The translations under genes were made by a program, and so were the position numbers. From the NCBI RefSeq assembly GCF_017599345.1, contig NZ_JAGFVL010000062.1, positions 62,001-126,000 of the forward strand: a DNA stretch of 64,000 nucleotides, given 5' to 3'. Positions within the stretch are counted from its first letter, which is position 1; each line of letters begins with the position of its first letter. This document shows, one piece after another, positions 54,633-61,835 of this stretch. The stretch is from Gracilibacillus suaedae (GTDB lineage Bacteria; Bacillota; Bacilli; Bacillales; Amphibacillaceae). The notes under the pieces were generated by a model that was not told the origin of the DNA, ran no database searches, and worked only from the letters and a program-made list of their open reading frames with translations.

Positions 54633-55820
54633 TTAGAATAAAGATAACTTCCCAATCCGATCACACGCTTCACGTAGACGGTCAGGTTCAGCCAATAACC
54701 CAATGCGGACATATCCTTCACCTGAAGCTCCAAACCCATTTCCAGGAGCAACGACGACATGTGCTTTTTCTAATAGAAGGTTTGCAAAGGATTCTGACGT
54801 GTATCCCTTTGGAGTTGGCATCCATACAAAGAATGATCCGTTCGCTGTACCACCATGCCAACCAATTTTCTCTGCTTGTTGTAAGAAGGCATCCCTTCTT
54901 TGCTGATAGGTATTGTTTAATTCCGCTATGGCACTCTTGCCTTTGTCTAGTGCGGTTTTTGCAGCGGATTGAATGGCGCCGAAAATACTGACATAATAGT
55001 GGTCCTGAATTAATTCAATCGCTTTAATAACAGAAGGGTTTCCGACAGCAAAGGCGACACGCCATCCAGCCATATTAAATGTTTTGGATAAGGTATACAT
55101 TTCGATGCCAACCTCTTTTGCCCCTTCTGATTGTAAGAAACTTTGTGGTTTTTCCTCTTCAAATCCAATCGCTCCATATGCAAAATCATGGACGACACAA
55201 ATCTGATTTTGTTTGGCTACCTCAATCGTATCATCAAAGAAATTCTTTGTTGCAGTAGCAGCTGTTGGATTGTTCGGATAATTTAAAAACATTAATTTTG
55301 CATCTGCTAAGTCTACCTCTGAAATCTGTTGATAATCAGGTAAAAAATGATTCTCTTCTTTTAACGGCATATGGATAGGGATAGCATCCGTTAAGGCAAT
55401 ACCTGACATATAATCTGGATAGCCAGGGTCAGGTACTAATACCTTTTCTTTAGGATTTAAGAGACATTGACTAATTTCCACTAGCCCAGTTTTAGATCCG
55501 AACATGATCGCCACTTCTCTATTCGGATCAATATTTACGTGATACTCTCTTTGATAAAAGTCAGCTACTGCTTCTTTTAAAAAAGGATACCCTTGAAATG
55601 GAGAGTACTTATGAAACTTATGATTTTGACTAGCCTCTTGTAGTGCTTCTACAATAAAATCAGGTGTTGGTAAATCAGGATTACCTTGACCAAGATTAAT
55701 GACATCATGCCCTTCTTTTATTAATGCTTGTGTTGTTTTTACTAACTTTGCAAAAAATTGTTCTGGTAATCTTTTTAATGCATGGGATTGTTCGAACTCT
55801 ATCATTTCATCACGCTCCAT
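54633..55820 (-). CDS. mtnE: MtnE/YkrV-like PLP-dependent aminotransferase
   Basis: 395 residues, fold-type I aminotransferase. The start (FEQSHALKRLPEQFFAKLVK) and many inner blocks closely resemble B. subtilis YkrV (MtnE), as remembered. MtnE transaminates 2-keto-4-methylthiobutyrate to methionine in the salvage pathway. INLGQGNPDLPTP near residue 42 and the PLP Lys in YTLSKTFNMAGWRVAFA near 237 are seen. The frame is open to 55898, but ATG 55820 with AAAGGA fits. It overlaps the end of the dehydrogenase gene by 11 bases, so the two are coupled. Context (methionine transporter, SAM riboswitch) supports the role. Confidence 0.82.
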   Translation of the reverse strand: MERDEMIEFEQSHALKRLPEQFFAKLVKTTQALIKEGHDVINLGQGNPDLPTPDFIVEALQEASQNHKFHKYSPFQGYPFLKEAVADFYQREYHVNIDPNREVAIMFGSKTGLVEISQCLLNPKEKVLVPDPGYPDYMSGIALTDAIPIHMPLKEENHFLPDYQQISEVDLADAKLMFLNYPNNPTAATATKNFFDDTIEVAKQNQICVVHDFAYGAIGFEEEKPQSFLQSEGAKEVGIEMYTLSKTFNMAGWRVAFAVGNPSVIKAIELIQDHYYVSIFGAIQSAAKTALDKGKSAIAELNNTYQQRRDAFLQQAEKIGWHGGTANGSFFVWMPTPKGYTSESFANLLLEKAHVVVAPGNGFGASGEGYVRIGLLAEPDRLREACDRIGKLSLF

Positions 55821-56910
55821 TTTGGTTCCTTTCGTTATTTCGAATGAATTCTTCCAATCGAAATACAGCTTCTCGCACAACTTGGGGGTCCGACACATTC
55901 ATAAAATGGATCGATTCTTTAGGTTTCGTAGCACCTTTACTTAATAAGTCAACTTTTTCCTCTGTAATTTCTGTAACACCGATATCATGAAGACTAGTTG
56001 GTAGTTGTAAACGCTGATAGAAAGGAAGTAATTTTTTGACTTCATCTAGTCTTTTTTCAATCGCTAATTGAACGAGAACACCGTAAGCAACTTTGTCGCC
56101 ATGTAAGGTATCATGTGTTTCAGCGAGGTGCGTTAGACCGTTATGGATCGAATGAGCCCCAGATACTCTACCATAATGATCACCAAAGCCGCCAACCATT
56201 CCACCTGCCATTATGATCGTTTCTATCGAACGTAAAAAGGAATGATTATACGATTGTTGGTCAATTGCTGCTAGTGCCTCTTCGCCCTCATCGATCAGAA
56301 CATCACGACAAAGCTTTGCTGCGTGTAATGCAATATCTAATGAAACAGGCTTCTCTGGTAATTCACGTGTTAAAACATCTGCTTCATACCATTTCGCGAT
56401 TGTATCCCCTATTCCAGCGCGGAAATAGGCTCTTGGCGAGTCCAAAATCACGTTAGGATCTACTAATAACATATAAGTGCTACGGTTGAAGATAATATAT
56501 TCTTGAAAGTTGCCATTGTGATCATAGAAGACCGATAGTGGTGTCCAGGGTGCGCAATTCGATGCTAACGTAGGTATTAAAATAGTTGGTAAGGTTAATC
56601 GGTCTCCACATGCTTTGGCAATGTCTAATATTTTTCCGCCACCGATACCGATCACAGCTGTTGTTTCTGATTTAGTTAACTTCGCAATTCGCTCTACTTC
56701 ATGGTGTGAACACTCTCCGTGATAAGCAATAAATTGGCAAGGTAATGCAGGATTTGCAAAATAAGTTTTTACTTTTGTCCATGATTGGTCGCCATGAATC
56801 ACCAGTATTTGTTCGAATTTGTGTTTTTGTAATAAATCAAATAAATCATGTAATATACCATTTCGGCATTGATAGTAGTTAGGTGCTCCTTTGATATGTA
56901 ATGTATCCAT
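55810..56910 (-). CDS. iron-containing alcohol/glycerol dehydrogenase family protein (HcxA-like)
   Basis: 366 residues of the glycerol-dehydrogenase type: NAD motif VIGIGGGKILDIAKACG near residue 85, TLASNCAPWTPLSVFYD near 116 and metal-binding His in VSGAHSIHNGLTHLAETHDTLHGD near 240. E. coli HcxA (YbdH), which reduces 2-oxo acids including the methionine keto acid, is of this type, and its gene stands next to a methionine aminotransferase gene (YbdL). The same pairing here suggests a hydroxy/keto acid dehydrogenase rather than a glycerol enzyme (inference). The frame is open to 56952; ATG 56910 has GAGGTG. Divergent from the SAM-riboswitch operon. Confidence 0.85.
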   Translation of the reverse strand: MDTLHIKGAPNYYQCRNGILHDLFDLLQKHKFEQILVIHGDQSWTKVKTYFANPALPCQFIAYHGECSHHEVERIAKLTKSETTAVIGIGGGKILDIAKACGDRLTLPTILIPTLASNCAPWTPLSVFYDHNGNFQEYIIFNRSTYMLLVDPNVILDSPRAYFRAGIGDTIAKWYEADVLTRELPEKPVSLDIALHAAKLCRDVLIDEGEEALAAIDQQSYNHSFLRSIETIIMAGGMVGGFGDHYGRVSGAHSIHNGLTHLAETHDTLHGDKVAYGVLVQLAIEKRLDEVKKLLPFYQRLQLPTSLHDIGVTEITEEKVDLLSKGATKPKESIHFMNVSDPQVVREAVFRLEEFIRNNERNQNGA

Positions 56911-56996
56911 CTCTTCACCTCGATGATTGTGATATGGTAAGAAGTATGCCATTTGAACAGGTAAGTGTCAATCTAAATTGAATTTTCTGAAAAAGG

Positions 56997-57025
56997 TTGA
57001 CTTATATACTTTAGTTCGCTATACT
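56997..57025 (+). promoter_or_regulatory. sigma-A promoter of the met operon
   Basis: TTGACT (56997-57002), 17-base spacer, TATACT (57020-57025), about 26 bases before the riboswitch. Confidence 0.8.
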
Positions 57026-57050
57026 CATTAGCATAAAAAATTGAATGATT

Positions 57051-57159
57051 CTTATCGCGAGTGGCGGAGGGACTGGCCCAATGAAACCCGGCAACCATCT
57101 ATCCTTCAATAGAAAGGTGCTAAATCCAGCAAACAGTTGAACTGTTTGGGAGATAAGAG
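57051..57159 (+). ncRNA. SAM-I (S-box) riboswitch
   Basis: CTTATC at the 5' end pairs with GATAAG at the 3' end (P1). Between them are GGCGGAGGGACTGGCCC, ATGAAACCCGGCAACC and AAGGTGCTAAATCCAGCAAA, the conserved core of the S-box. It should sense S-adenosylmethionine and shut the metQNP operon when it is abundant. Confidence 0.96.
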
Positions 57160-57172
57160 AAAAACTATGAAA

Positions 57173-57215
57173 ATAGGATTCTCTATCTCAAAAGAAGATA
57201 GGGATTTTTTAATGG
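57173..57215 (+). terminator. expression platform terminator of the SAM riboswitch
   Basis: ATTCTCTATCT and AGATAGGGAT form the terminator stem with a T-run after it. GAGATAAGAGA at the end of the aptamer can instead pair with TCTCTATCTC in the first arm: this is the antiterminator used without SAM. Confidence 0.9.
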
Positions 57216-57239
57216 AAAATTATATGAGGGGGATACAAC

Positions 57240-58037
57240 ATGAAGAAGCTTGTAGGATTTATTAGTGTAGCAATCATTCTTATTTTAGCAGCTTGTGGAG
57301 GAGAAAATGCAGATGGCGGTGGTACATTAGATGTCGGTGTAACGGCTGGGCCACACGAAGATATTTTAAATCACGTAGCAGAATTGGCAGCAGATGAAGG
57401 CTTAGAGATAGAGGTGCATGTATTTAACGATTATGTGATGCCCAATACAGCTTTAGACGAAGGTGAACTAGATGCAAACATCTTTCAACACGAACCGTTT
57501 ATGAATAATGCACGTGATGAAGGAGATTTAGACTTAGTGAAAGTAGCAGATACAGTAAACTTCCCAATGGGGATTTACTCTGACCAATATGCTAGTTTAG
57601 ATGAATTGCAAGAAGGCGATAAGGTAGGATTACCAAACCACTCTTCAGGTGAGCCACGTGCATTAATGTTATTTGAAGAGGCTGGTTTAATTACATTACC
57701 AGAAGATGCAGATGTTACTGTATCTGTGAAGGATATACAAGATAACCCATTAAACTTGGAATTTGTACTACTTGAAGCATCACAAATTCCTAGACAATTA
57801 GGCGAGGTGCAAGTTGCGGCGATTAATACTAACTATGCACTAGAGAGTGGGCGAGTTCCAACAGAGGATTCTCTTCACATGGAACCAAAAGACTCACCAT
57901 GGGTAAACATTATAGCGACGAGAGAAGAGAATGTCGAAGATGAACAAATTAAACAATTAATTGATATTTATCGTTCAGAGGAAGTAAAGCAATTTATCGA
58001 GGAGGACTTCGCAGGGTCAGTTGTTCCTTCATGGTAA
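57240..58037 (+). CDS. metQ: MetQ methionine-binding lipoprotein
   Basis: 265 residues, NlpA/MetQ-type substrate-binding protein. Signal MKKLVGFISVAIILILAAC with lipobox ILAAC; the mature part has DVGVTAGPHEDILNHVAEL near residue 30, DANIFQHEPFMNN near 77 and VGLPNHSSGEPRALMLFEEA near 128. It captures methionine (or close analogues) for MetNP. It is first in a SAM-riboswitch-controlled operon, spaced 18 bp from metN. Ligand specificity is from family knowledge. Confidence 0.95.
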   Translation: MKKLVGFISVAIILILAACGGENADGGGTLDVGVTAGPHEDILNHVAELAADEGLEIEVHVFNDYVMPNTALDEGELDANIFQHEPFMNNARDEGDLDLVKVADTVNFPMGIYSDQYASLDELQEGDKVGLPNHSSGEPRALMLFEEAGLITLPEDADVTVSVKDIQDNPLNLEFVLLEASQIPRQLGEVQVAAINTNYALESGRVPTEDSLHMEPKDSPWVNIIATREENVEDEQIKQLIDIYRSEEVKQFIEEDFAGSVVPSW

Positions 58038-58055
58038 GAAAGGGGCACATACAGC

Positions 58056-59090
58056 ATGATTGAATTTAGAAACCTAACGAAAGTTTTTCAAGACAAGAAA
58101 AGAGAAGTAAAAGCCCTTCATAACGTATCACTAAAAGTGAAGGAAGGATCTATTTTTGGTGTAATTGGATATAGTGGGGCTGGTAAAAGTACATTAGTCA
58201 GAATGGCCAATTTGTTAGAAAAGCCGACTTCTGGTCAAGTTTTATTTGAAGGTCACGATTTAACCGAGTTAAGTGGTAATCAATTAAATGAAGTAAGACA
58301 GCAAATGGGGATGATTTTTCAATCCTTTAACCTTTTAAAAACGGGTACAGTGTATGAAAATATTGCATTGCCTTTGAAGCTAACGGGCGTATCAAAATCC
58401 GAGATTGATAAACGTGTAGAAAAGTATATTCAAATAGTAGGTTTGCAGGATAAGTTAAAGGCTTATCCTGCCCAACTATCTGGAGGACAGAAGCAACGTG
58501 TAGCGATTGCACGTGCATTAGCCCATGAACCGAAAGTATTATTATGTGATGAAGCTACAAGTGCACTTGATCCAGATACGACCGAAGCGATTTTAGAATT
58601 ATTAAGCAAAATTAATAAAGAATTGGGTATTACAATTTTATTGATTACACATGAAATGAATGTGGTGCAGAAAATTTGTCATGAAGTAGCTGTTATGGAG
58701 CAAGGGAAAGTGATTGAGCAGGGGTCTGTAATTGATGTTTTCTCAAAACCACAAACAGACACAGCTAAACGGTTTATTCATTCTCTATTTAATGATGATA
58801 TTCCAGGTGACCTTCTGAAGAAATTGAAAAACAACGGGAAATTAGTTGCGTTATCCTTTATTGGTGAGTCTGCTGGTGACCCAGCACTTGCGATGGTCAC
58901 GAAAAAATATGATGTCTTTCCATCTATACTAGGTGGCAATATTACGGATTTAAAAGAGCGACCATTCGGCCGTTTAATCGTTCATTTAGATGGAAGTGAA
59001 AGCGAAGCACAGAAAGCGATCAATTACTTGAAGGAAAGTGGCGTAATCGTGGAAACTTATAATAAAGGAGGGATCAACCATGTTAACTAG
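58056..59090 (+). CDS. metN: MetN ABC transporter ATP-binding protein
   Basis: 344 residues. ABC domain: Walker A GYSGAGKST near residue 38, signature LSGGQKQRVAIARALA near 143, Walker B VLLCDEATSALDPD near 163. The C-terminal 90 residues form the NIL/ACT-like domain (KLVALSFIGESAGDPALAMV), which in MetN enzymes senses methionine and inhibits transport. Energises methionine uptake. It overlaps metP by 11 bases. Confidence 0.96.
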   Translation: MIEFRNLTKVFQDKKREVKALHNVSLKVKEGSIFGVIGYSGAGKSTLVRMANLLEKPTSGQVLFEGHDLTELSGNQLNEVRQQMGMIFQSFNLLKTGTVYENIALPLKLTGVSKSEIDKRVEKYIQIVGLQDKLKAYPAQLSGGQKQRVAIARALAHEPKVLLCDEATSALDPDTTEAILELLSKINKELGITILLITHEMNVVQKICHEVAVMEQGKVIEQGSVIDVFSKPQTDTAKRFIHSLFNDDIPGDLLKKLKNNGKLVALSFIGESAGDPALAMVTKKYDVFPSILGGNITDLKERPFGRLIVHLDGSESEAQKAINYLKESGVIVETYNKGGINHVN

Positions 59091-59754
59091 CATTACAAAT
59101 TTTATCAATAATTGGGGAGTTGAAATTTGGGAAGCCTTTATTGATACGATGATCATGGTAGGTGTCTCCTTAACACTTTCGATTATTATTGGTTTACCAT
59201 TAGGTGTCTTGTTAACGTTAACTGGACCTGGTAAAGCATTAGAAAATAAGGTTCTATATCAAATCTTAAATACTATCATTAATATATTGCGATCGATACC
59301 ATTTATTATTCTATTATTTTTTATTTTACCTTTCACGAAGCTAGTAGCTGGTACAACGATTGGTGTGCAAGGTGTAATTGTACCATTAGTAGTGTTTACT
59401 GCACCTTATATAGCTCGTCTAATGGAGTCGAGCTTATTAGAAGTTGATCGCGGTGTAATCGAAGCGTATGAGGCAATGGGAATCAAGACACGTCATATCA
59501 TTTGGCACGTTCTTATTCGTGAAGCACGCCCATCGATTATATTAGGCTTAACCATTGCGACAATTGGCCTTATAGGGGCGACAGCTATGGCTGGCTTAGT
59601 TGGTGCTGGTGGTCTTGGTGATTTAGCATATCGATATGGTCATTTACGTTATCAAGCTGATATCATGTATGTCACGGTGATCATCTTAATTATTTTGGTA
59701 CAAGGTGTACAAACGATTGGAAACCGTGTATCAGCTAGATTGAAGAAAGATTAA
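59080..59754 (+). CDS. metP: MetP (MetI-type) ABC transporter permease
   Basis: 224 residues with five membrane segments and the ABC permease motif EAYEAMGIKTRHIIWHVLIREARPSIILG near residue 128, of which the EA...G...P part contacts MetN. Typical methionine permease. The ATG lies inside metN with GGAGGG before it, so translation is coupled. Only 10 bases separate its stop from the oxidase gene, which therefore is part of the same riboswitch-controlled operon. Confidence 0.95.
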   Translation: MLTSITNFINNWGVEIWEAFIDTMIMVGVSLTLSIIIGLPLGVLLTLTGPGKALENKVLYQILNTIINILRSIPFIILLFFILPFTKLVAGTTIGVQGVIVPLVVFTAPYIARLMESSLLEVDRGVIEAYEAMGIKTRHIIWHVLIREARPSIILGLTIATIGLIGATAMAGLVGAGGLGDLAYRYGHLRYQADIMYVTVIILIILVQGVQTIGNRVSARLKKD

Positions 59755-59764
59755 GGTGAAGCTT

Positions 59765-60898
59765 ATGGCAGTATCTTTTCCGATCCGTTTTCAAGAATTA
59801 GAACAGCAAGCCAAAGATCGACTTGATCCCAAGGTTTTTGATTATATTCAAAGTGGTGGCGGCAGAGAAGAAACGTTGCGAGCAAATGAAGCATCTTTCA
59901 GAAAGTGGCAATTAGTACCACGTTTTGGAGCAGATGTTTCAACTGTTTCATTGGCTAAAAAGTTACACGATGAGACAATTCAGTCACCTATTATGTTGGC
60001 TCCAGTTGGAATGCAAGCTCTAGCTGACACAAATGGTGAAAAAGCGAGTATATGTGCTGCTCACAAGTATGGAATACCATTTATTGCAAGCACGGTATCC
60101 TCTTATTCGCTTGAAGAGATAGCCGAAGCCTGCCCTGATGCAGATCGTTGGTTTCAATTATACTATCCAAATGATGAAGCATTAGCCAAAAGCTTTGTTC
60201 AACGTGCCGAAAAAGCAGGCTACCAAGCGATTGTCGTAACGATTGATATGGCAACGCTTGGCCATCGTGAAAAAGACTTAACCAATCAATACTCGCCATT
60301 TCGTTTAGGGAAAGGCATGAGTAATTATACGAATGATCCTATTTTTCAATCATATGTAGCAGGTCTTTCACAGGAAGAAATGCGAACAGAAATGCAAAAA
60401 GTCTTTTTTAAGCCAGGATTAAATTGGCAAGATATACAAGATCTGCGAAAGGCAACACCACTTCCTATTTTCATAAAGGGAATATTACACCCTAATGATG
60501 CAGAGAAGGCAGTAGAGATAGGTATTGATGGAATCGTCATTTCTAATCATGGTGGACGCCAACTAGATCGATCAATTACATCGATTGATGCTTTACCGTT
60601 AGTTAAAGAAAGAGTACAAGATCAGTTAACCATTTTATTAGATAGTGGTATTCGCTCAGGTCCGGATATTGTCACAGCATTAGCATTAGGAGCAGATGCT
60701 GTTCTTTTAGGACGACCATTTATTTATGGATTGGCTATTGCTGGACAGTTAGGGGTCGAGAAAGTAGTAGATAATATCACGAATGATCTAACCAAAACGT
60801 TACAGTTAATGGGTGTCAATGATGTGAATAAACTGGATAGTTCATTTGTAAGGTATGTTAGTAAACAGATAGATTATATGAATTCTTACTGTAGGTAA
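59765..60898 (+). CDS. FMN-dependent alpha-hydroxy-acid oxidase/dehydrogenase
   Basis: 377 residues, the FMN TIM-barrel family of lactate oxidase, glycolate oxidase and lactate monooxygenase. Seen: PIMLAPVGMQALAD near residue 76, VVTIDMATLGHREKDL near 160, the catalytic His and Arg in ISNHGGRQLDRSITSID near 257 and DSGIRSGPDIVTALALGADA near 294. It oxidises an L-2-hydroxy acid to the 2-keto acid. A GTG at 59756 is in frame, but AAGGTG suits ATG 59765. As the last gene of the methionine uptake operon its likely substrate is the hydroxy analogue of methionine rather than lactate (inference). Confidence 0.88.
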   Translation: MAVSFPIRFQELEQQAKDRLDPKVFDYIQSGGGREETLRANEASFRKWQLVPRFGADVSTVSLAKKLHDETIQSPIMLAPVGMQALADTNGEKASICAAHKYGIPFIASTVSSYSLEEIAEACPDADRWFQLYYPNDEALAKSFVQRAEKAGYQAIVVTIDMATLGHREKDLTNQYSPFRLGKGMSNYTNDPIFQSYVAGLSQEEMRTEMQKVFFKPGLNWQDIQDLRKATPLPIFIKGILHPNDAEKAVEIGIDGIVISNHGGRQLDRSITSIDALPLVKERVQDQLTILLDSGIRSGPDIVTALALGADAVLLGRPFIYGLAIAGQLGVEKVVDNITNDLTKTLQLMGVNDVNKLDSSFVRYVSKQIDYMNSYCR

Positions 60899-60929
60899 GC
60901 TTGCATATATAGTAGAAGAGAATAACACA

Positions 60930-60984
60930 AAAAAAAAGAGTGGTATCCATCACAAATTTGGTGAAGGGTACCACTCTTTTTGGG
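60930..60984 (+). terminator. Rho-independent terminator of the met operon
   Basis: AAAGAGTGGTATCC and GGGTACCACTCTTT form a 14-bp stem, enclosing a smaller ATCAC/GGTGA stem, then TTTT. Confidence 0.9.
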
Positions 60985-61046
60985 CTTGCATCCTCCGTAA
61001 CGTTATATGCTAATCTAAAATTATAATAATGATGGAGGGATAGCTC

Positions 61047-61835
61047 ATGGGGAATAATGAACCTGTTTTTACAATTGGTGAATTTAGTAAACGGGCAAGG
61101 CTAACGGTAAGAACATTACGGTTTTATGAGGAACTAGGCTTATTAATACCTAAACAACAAAACAGCTCTGGTCATAGGTTGTATGGATTAGCAGAATTAG
61201 TGAAGCTACAACAAATTCAGTCATTAAAATTTTTAGGCTATTCTTTACAGGAGATTAAAAACTTAACTGAAAACGATACGAATCCATTTACTCAACTAGA
61301 GAAGTCGTTACCTTGGCAACATAAGCTTCTGACAGAAAAAAGAGACGAATTAAATCGAGCCATCGAAGCAGTAGAGCGTGTACAATTCTTATTAAGAGAA
61401 GGAGCACCAATCACGTGGACGGTGTTAAGCTCTCTCCTTTTTAAAATCGAACATGAACAAGATCAAAGAGAGTGGATGAAAGAATATTTTTCAGAGGATA
61501 TCGCTGACCAGTTTTATTCTCTTCCTAAAGATCAACGGCAACAAATAGATATGGAAATGTTAGACTGGCTAGCTGCGGTGAAGGAAATGATGAAACGTGG
61601 TGTTTCTCCTCAATCCCCTGAAGCCTTTGATGTGCTCGTAAAATTGACTGAATTAGCAACGAAACATGTCGATAATAAAGAAGAGTTGGCGGAGCAGCTT
61701 GAAAAAGCACAAGAATTGATGGAATCAGAAATAATGGATTTTAAATTTCCAACTATTTTAACTCCGGAAGAAGAGGCTTTTATCGAGGAAATAGGAAAGT
61801 CGATGGAAGCATTATATAATGAAAACGCGGAATAA
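61047..61835 (+). CDS. MerR family transcriptional regulator
   Basis: 262 residues. MerR DNA-binding domain (FTIGEFSKRARLTVRTLRFY, then SSGHRLYGLAELVKLQQIQS), a coiled coil near residues 85-120, then an all-helical domain with a pattern such as DQRQQIDMEMLDWLAAVKEM. This resembles the TipAS-type antibiotic-binding domain of multidrug-sensing MerR proteins. It has GGAGGGATAG before the ATG. No pump or obvious target is next to it. Ligand unknown. Confidence 0.87.
   Translation: MGNNEPVFTIGEFSKRARLTVRTLRFYEELGLLIPKQQNSSGHRLYGLAELVKLQQIQSLKFLGYSLQEIKNLTENDTNPFTQLEKSLPWQHKLLTEKRDELNRAIEAVERVQFLLREGAPITWTVLSSLLFKIEHEQDQREWMKEYFSEDIADQFYSLPKDQRQQIDMEMLDWLAAVKEMMKRGVSPQSPEAFDVLVKLTELATKHVDNKEELAEQLEKAQELMESEIMDFKFPTILTPEEEAFIEEIGKSMEALYNENAE

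Follow-up and report, generated by a model that had tools for sequence, protein, structure and literature searches.

Methionine auxotrophs of Escherichia coli can be satisfied by alpha-hydroxy methionine as well as by the keto analogue of methionine (review, PMC3274233). Here we describe a gene cluster of Gracilibacillus suaedae that may relate to the use of such analogues. It lies in a stretch of 64,000 nucleotides (contig NZ_JAGFVL010000062.1, positions 62,001 to 126,000), hereafter the window, and consists of a SAM-I riboswitch (S-box; SAM, S-adenosylmethionine) followed by the methionine importer genes metQNP and a gene for a flavin mononucleotide (FMN)-dependent 2-hydroxy-acid oxidase, with a divergent pair of genes for an HcxA-like dehydrogenase and a methionine-type transaminase. 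Comparison with related genomes indicates that this 2-hydroxy acid module is real, conserved and linked to S-boxes. We consider, with moderate confidence, that it is a methionine-starvation module for salvage of de-aminated methionine, whose predicted substrates, 2-hydroxy-4-methylthiobutanoate (HMTB) and 2-keto-4-methylthiobutyrate (KMTB), are returned to methionine.

In E. coli K-12, hcxA (hydroxycarboxylate dehydrogenase A in RefSeq) is divergent from ybdL, which encodes a methionine transaminase. A 2011 study of MetJ treats the gene, as ybdH, as one of unknown function that is found together with salvage genes and has metboxes in common with mtnE/ybdL (PMC3228920), and chromatin immunoprecipitation with exonuclease treatment (ChIP-exo) confirmed MetJ sites for both hcxA and ybdL (PMC11701608). 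Like the window, the E. coli locus sets an HcxA-family gene divergent from a methionine-type transaminase, and it is methionine-regulated, via MetJ, in a host that does not have the salvage pathway (PMC3228920). It differs in that MetJ takes the place of the S-box, the transaminases of the two loci are 25% identical, and neither an FMN oxidase nor metNIQ is present within the 16 kb viewed. That HcxA is found next to a methionine-type transaminase and subject to control by methionine in two settings with unrelated regulators appears to us the strongest argument for KMTB/HMTB chemistry.

The end step of methionine salvage is another system suited for comparison. The MtnE protein of Bacillus subtilis is listed as a glutamine transaminase that is 50% identical to BacF (PMC6522883), and an omega-amidase pulls glutamine transamination forward, acting as a ketoglutaramate ratchet (PMC6302742, PMC6522883). 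The module described here shares the PRK08068-type transaminase with this end step, and some relatives add a nitrilase-type amidase; it differs in having no branch from methylthioadenosine (MTA), as judged from the mtnA counts given below. Animals use HMTB by means of an L-2-hydroxy acid oxidase and a D-2-hydroxy acid dehydrogenase, which is the same scheme as the one we propose, i.e., a flavin oxidase and a dehydrogenase for opposite enantiomers followed by transamination. Unlike the animal system, the module is bacterial, linked to a riboswitch and placed beside an importer, and its dehydrogenase has the iron-containing alcohol dehydrogenase (iron-ADH) fold. HMTB (there called MTHB) is also an intermediate in the synthesis of dimethylsulfoniopropionate (DMSP), which could be its natural source, and the transamination pathway to DMSP opens with a methionine aminotransferase followed by a reductase acting on KMTB (there called MTOB) (PMC11306096).

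The S-box operon and the divergent gene pair

The + strand carries, in this order, the S-box aptamer (57049-57159), metQ (57240-58037), metN (58056-59090), metP, also named metI (59080-59754), and the oxidase gene (59765-60898). The S-box matches the full Rfam model RF00162 with 85.7 bits (E = 7.1e-19; gathering score 44.4) and stands upstream of methionine genes together with a terminator-like hairpin, which places it in the SAM-I class, SAM binding being a prediction; a genome-wide search recovered the same element at G000:C59:119049-119159. The product of metQ is a methionine-type substrate-binding lipoprotein (PF03180, 7.3e-83) with best NCBIfam matches among the MetQ/NlpA families, metN encodes an ATPase with a NIL domain (PF00005 and PF09383; best model TIGR02314), and metP encodes a BPD_transp_1 permease (best model PRK10782, methionine permease MetI). 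An NlpA lipoprotein, a NIL-domain ATPase and a permease encoded in one operon constitute the gene content of a MetNPQ importer; the NCBIfam cut-offs are not reached for MetQ (223.7 versus 374 bits), MetN (415.5 versus 499.7) and MetI (201.1 versus 212), these still being the top-scoring models. The genes are tightly spaced, with a gap of 18 bases between metQ and metN, an overlap of 11 bases between metN and metP, and a gap of 10 bases from metP to the ATG at 59765. The oxidase (PF01070, 7.2e-121) is listed as an open reading frame from GTG 59756; judging from the letters, the ATG at 59765, which follows AGGTGA and gives a protein of 377 amino acids, seems the better start.

On the - strand, the HcxA-like dehydrogenase of iron-ADH fold is encoded at 55810-56910, its ATG at 56910 standing behind GAGGTGAAGAG. 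Its best NCBIfam match is PRK10586, which we take to be the YbdH/HcxA model; the score of 308.3 bits is below the equivalog cut-off of 429. Over 355 residues the protein shares 39% identity with E. coli HcxA, and it is on account of this identity and of the gene context, the PRK10586 cut-off having failed, that we suppose it to work like HcxA. The transaminase gene (54633-55820) has its start, ATG 55820, inside the 3' end of the HcxA-like gene. It encodes a class I enzyme (Aminotran_1_2) that belongs to the PRK08068 subfamily of MtnE/BacF type (NF005977, 649.4 bits, cut-off 494), with a candidate lysine for pyridoxal phosphate in the motif SKTFNM, recognized by eye. In a sequence search it resembles the structures 6l1l, presumably BacF, and 2o1b.

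The initial annotation had placed the S-box, metQNP and the FMN oxidase in one operon and a divergent HcxA-like gene overlapping an MtnE-like aminotransferase gene beside it, and the coordinates and the Rfam and Pfam matches agree with this. It had also put the entire set under one S-box, which does not hold in the window: the S-box match is confined to the + strand, an Rfam scan of the window found no riboswitch on the - strand ahead of the HcxA/transaminase pair, and the pair is therefore not under the S-box. The arrangement exists in a relative (locus L164), where one S-box is followed in a row by the genes for the transaminase, HcxA, MetQ, MetN, MetP and the oxidase.

Linkage of the oxidase, metNP and the S-box in related genomes

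We call an oxidase locus linked when metN/metP are close by on the same strand as the oxidase gene. At the family level we took, with their flanks, all 64 oxidase matches with E <= 2.7e-78 outside the window's own genome, in a set of 159 genomes; one of them (L105) is a broken copy of 268 amino acids and some flanks end at contig ends. Of these loci, 32 are linked, and an S-box lies upstream in every one. The other 32 loci have neither metNP nor an S-box on the oxidase strand, and in two of them (L131 and L139) an S-box lies 1.2-1.5 kb upstream on the opposite strand. These S-box counts make a coincidental placement of the oxidase very unlikely. In L139 (7837-13000, genome G055), which was counted as unlinked, metNP genes and their S-box lie divergently, 1.5-2.7 kb upstream of the oxidase, and the locus is perhaps an earlier or a broken stage of the linkage.

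Linked and unlinked family loci also differ in their other neighbors within 8 kb of the oxidase. The transaminase gene is found there in 24 of the 32 linked loci, HcxA in 14/32 and an omega-amidase-like nitrilase gene in 7/32, compared to 0/32 unlinked loci in each case. A crotonase-like gene is present in 7/32 linked and 0/32 unlinked loci, and so is a gene for a family III coenzyme A (CoA)-transferase; the two also occur in three of the ten linked loci found at the order level. The operons that combine S-box, metNP and oxidase with such enoyl-CoA-hydratase-like and CoA-transferase genes are L076, L080, L081, L083, L084, L087, L106 and L155-L157; a 2-oxopent-4-enoate-hydratase-like gene is present in L078, L117 and L130.

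At the order level, 20 of 65 matches (59 of the 65 outside the family), mostly the best-scoring ones, were analyzed. Ten of the 20 are linked, all ten with an S-box; nine of these ten are the nine best non-family matches, and because the loci were picked mostly from the best matches the proportion is not a rate. Locus L167 (genome G267), among the 20 analyzed, holds a split oxidase and is the sole one taken of four phylum-level matches outside the window's own genome. On the oxidase strand of L166, counted as unlinked, an S-box with HcxA and MetQ genes behind it lies 1.9-3.9 kb upstream. Eight of the 42 linked loci showed no nearby MetQ gene, and for these metNPQ is to be read as metNP.

In a rapidly built, long-branched tree, linked oxidases occupy several deep branches, and the linked label requires 5 changes compared to 22.9 in shuffles; this tree does not distinguish one old origin with subsequent losses from repeated recruitment of the oxidase. 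At the genome level, where HcxA was defined by the 55 best rows with at least 38% identity and the transaminase by E < 1e-130 and at least 52% identity, and where the statistics are only indicative because the genomes are related, the 33 genomes with a linked oxidase include 29 with HcxA (11.2 expected), 33 with the transaminase (23.0 expected) and one with mtnA (1.7 expected).

In several relatives HcxA is itself a riboswitch gene. Among loci L169-L188, eight of the 15 with HcxA have it behind an S-box: in L173-L178 HcxA is the first gene after the S-box and is followed by a nitrilase-type gene, and in L187 and L188 it lies inside S-box metNPQ operons. Five of the 15 (L169-L171, L182 and L184) showed no S-box, in L172 the S-box is about 600 bases upstream, and in L186 it is on the metN side only. 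HcxA, metQNP and the oxidase all follow one S-box in L149, L150, L152, L154 and, with a gene of 391 amino acids in between, L151. L149, L150 and L152 have close relatives named Pseudalkalibacillus spartinae (L069) and P. hwajinpoensis (L070); L069/L070 and L149-L152 are close to one another, and L070 and L150 are probably the same record. HcxA and the transaminase gene are at most 3 kb apart in 32 of the 55 HcxA rows.

The initial annotation had proposed to look for the oxidase together with metNPQ and for HcxA together with the transaminase. The outcome is strongly positive, the association being present across many genera of the family and also in certain other families within the order. A literature search limited to titles and the openings of abstracts, with most subscription journals outside its range, yielded no account of a met operon with an S-box and an FMN oxidase. 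The main text of PMC4239095 does not mention ybdH, hydroxy or oxidase, and the main text of PMC3766115 mentions neither oxidase nor metNPQ. The module is new as a combination; it is built of known families and has a parallel in the E. coli pair regulated by MetJ.

Proposed function and rival explanations

We infer the substrates, reaction direction, cofactors, amino donor and uptake route of the module from its gene content and regulation, as follows. Low SAM would open the S-box, a regulation predicted from the S-boxes, and metQNP and the FMN oxidase would be made. The oxidase would use O2 to convert a 2-hydroxy acid, most likely L-HMTB, to the 2-keto acid KMTB. The HcxA-like dehydrogenase, putatively NAD(P)-linked, would convert the same or the other HMTB enantiomer to KMTB without O2. 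The PRK08068 transaminase would then turn KMTB into methionine with glutamine as the probable donor, the reaction being driven by an omega-amidase where one is present. A division of the HMTB enantiomers between oxidase and dehydrogenase is a guess. The locus and its relatives would supply regulated candidate enzymes, perhaps one per enantiomer, for the use of hydroxy-methionine reported in E. coli auxotrophs. Hydroxy-methionine is a feed supplement as well as an intermediate of DMSP synthesis, so that its use by bacteria is relevant to animal nutrition and to marine sulphur cycling. A broader proposal, which we offer tentatively and as a doubtful one, is that HcxA serves bacteria in general as an HMTB dehydrogenase, under methionine control in Bacillales (S-box) and Enterobacteria (MetJ), that the FMN oxidase linked to S-boxes complements it by handling the opposite enantiomer with O2, and that hydroxy-methionine is a real natural currency of sulphur and methionine, e.g., from DMSP producers.

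A role of the transaminase in MTA salvage was considered and rejected. The search for mtnA (TIGR00512) gave no match in the window genome and, as a control, a match in B. subtilis, and the window transaminase therefore probably does not serve MTA salvage. A match to mtnA alone does not prove MTA salvage, because the control also matches E. coli, which is said to lack the pathway (PMC3228920). In the family, mtnA exceeds the cut-off in 8 of 159 genomes and never together with HcxA: the transaminase is present in 54/54 HcxA genomes and mtnA over the cut-off in 0/54, two of them (G076 and G085) having weak sub-threshold mtnA matches.

A number of observations weigh against the salvage of de-aminated methionine. 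The authors of the MetJ study read ybdH and mtnE as part of an Enterobacteria MTA salvage cluster, joined in E. coli by deletion of the genes between them, and the E. coli hcxA-ybdL pair may accordingly be a remnant of salvage (PMC3228920). The transaminase may be a general glutamine transaminase, since it is found in 111 of 159 family genomes, many without HcxA or a linked oxidase. Four of the 33 linked genomes (G018, G081, G110 and G155) are without HcxA by the chosen cut, and G110 has mtnA. The HcxA/transaminase pair of the window genome has no S-box, and the crotonase-like and CoA-transferase genes of some linked operons are not needed by the pathway. The oxidase residues, numbered here from GTG 59756, give no hint of the substrate. 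All core catalytic residues of the PF01070 family (Y30, Y136, D164, R171, K241, H265 and R268) are present in the window oxidase, and the last six are kept in 33/33 linked oxidases, the window included; Y30 is kept in 26/33, its counterpart Y40 of lactate oxidase (LOX) being replaced by His or Phe in the other seven. The region of LOX Y191/Y215 has no convincing alignment to the oxidase, and the glycine at LOX A95 is common in unlinked relatives too (32/34). The idea that a change of A95 to glycine marks a long substrate was dropped for the latter reason and because lactate monooxygenase (LMO) also has glycine there. Finally, nothing marks the window MetQ as a binder of HMTB. In MetQ of Neisseria meningitidis methionine is bound by R156, N213 and N238 (PMC6739813), and these ligands, mapped by motif spacing, are kept in the window MetQ as R139, N198 and N223. 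The window MetQ may simply import methionine, in which case HMTB would reach the cell in a different way. The salvage interpretation of the initial annotation is therefore supported in part: the linkage of the module and the MetJ regulation of E. coli hcxA/ybdL speak for it; the divergent pair is without an S-box in the window, and uptake of HMTB by MetQ is not indicated.

MetQ proteins of other loci vary in certain motifs. At loci with the transaminase and/or HcxA and no oxidase (L171-L174, L183, L187 and L188), MetQ has AVPGNYA or AVPGNFA in place of INTNYA, and GPY in place of GPH. The possibility that such proteins lack the ligand of the amino group was dropped, as the columns of N198 and N223 keep Asn there. 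In L073-L076, L086 and L087 a MetQ gene is located downstream of the oxidase; in L073-L075 and L086 it is the sole MetQ gene found, and L076 and L087 have another besides it. The motif of this downstream MetQ is FQTEPFF or FQHTPFF, compared to FQHxPYL, and the protein possibly binds a different methionine analogue.

A first rival explanation is metabolite repair. Lactate dehydrogenases or other reductases would accidentally reduce KMTB to HMTB, the oxidase and HcxA would restore KMTB and the transaminase methionine, with no HMTB from outside and metQNP importing methionine only. The enzymes and the regulation would be the same, and the methionine-like MetQ pocket agrees with it. We consider this explanation unlikely: little KMTB is expected from MTA, since most linked genomes are without mtnA, and the oxidase adjoins the metNP genes of an importer in half of the family loci, each with its S-box.

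Slightly less likely still is that the substrate is some other sulphur-containing or methionine-derived 2-hydroxy acid, which is made into a CoA thioester and cut to methanethiol, the window having a reduced version of the pathway. The crotonase-like and CaiB-type CoA-transferase genes accompanying the oxidase in the linked loci listed above, and the 2-oxopent-4-enoate-hydratase-like gene in 3/32 linked loci, agree with such a pathway; these genes are missing from most linked operons, including that of the window.

The oxidase could also be a broad enzyme for lactate or short-chain 2-hydroxy acids, its position next to metNP being without metabolic significance. By sequence, the solved structures nearest to it are LOX, LMO and hydroxyacid oxidase 1 (HAO1), with which it shares the FMN_dh family and the core catalytic residues, and its top NCBIfam match, at 276.7 bits against a cut-off of 376, is to a subfamily of lactate dehydrogenases, PRK11197. 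That match is under the cut-off, as are those to L-lactate oxidase (TIGR02708, 251.9 versus 645.5) and LldD (NF033901, 248.3 versus 550), and a plain lactate oxidase identity was rejected on this ground. Unlike these enzymes, the window oxidase is tied to S-boxes and metNP, which co-segregate, and the link is kept in several deep branches, so we regard this explanation as improbable. That the divergent pair runs in reverse, from methionine to KMTB and HMTB as the first two steps toward a DMSP-like osmolyte, is very improbable: the DMSP transamination pathway has the same two first steps (PMC11306096), but spending methionine at low SAM would hardly be sensible, and HcxA is behind an S-box in several relatives and MetJ-repressed in Enterobacteria.

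Minor features and other S-box loci

Ahead of the S-box, a consensus scan found a sigma-70-like promoter on the + strand (TTGACT-17-TATACT, 56997-57025); it is argued from position only, because such sites are no commoner in the sequence (21) than in shuffles (22.8). The same kind of scan found a promoter-like TTGACA-17-CATACT with TG on the - strand (56943-56971), about 30 bases upstream of the HcxA-like gene. A terminator-like hairpin on the + strand at 57180-57204, from a hairpin scan, is the probable expression platform of the S-box, the segment 57170-57215 folding at -10.7 kcal/mol. A hairpin with five T at about 60933-60981 on the + strand is the probable terminator of the operon; the simple hairpin scan missed it, and 60915-60985 folds at -29 kcal/mol. 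Directly past this terminator, at 61047-61835, there is a gene for a MerR-like regulator, the family being recognized by eye.

The window's own genome has a second, shortened FMN_dh paralogue of 305 amino acids at L026:11681-12598 (G000:C26), the first gene behind an S-box of its own. Among its relatives (L092-L103) an S-box lies upstream in 11/11 cases and, at a greater distance, also in L092. The catalytic His and Arg are absent from 13/13 aligned shortened paralogues, the protein being otherwise conserved (HEDGELA in most), and it is apparently a riboswitch-linked, dead enzyme. In the same locus, L026:5193-11416 contains tandem S-boxes followed by a sulfhydrylase-like gene (recognized by eye), an SsuA-type ABC (ATP-binding cassette) transporter and an acetate-CoA-ligase-type gene.

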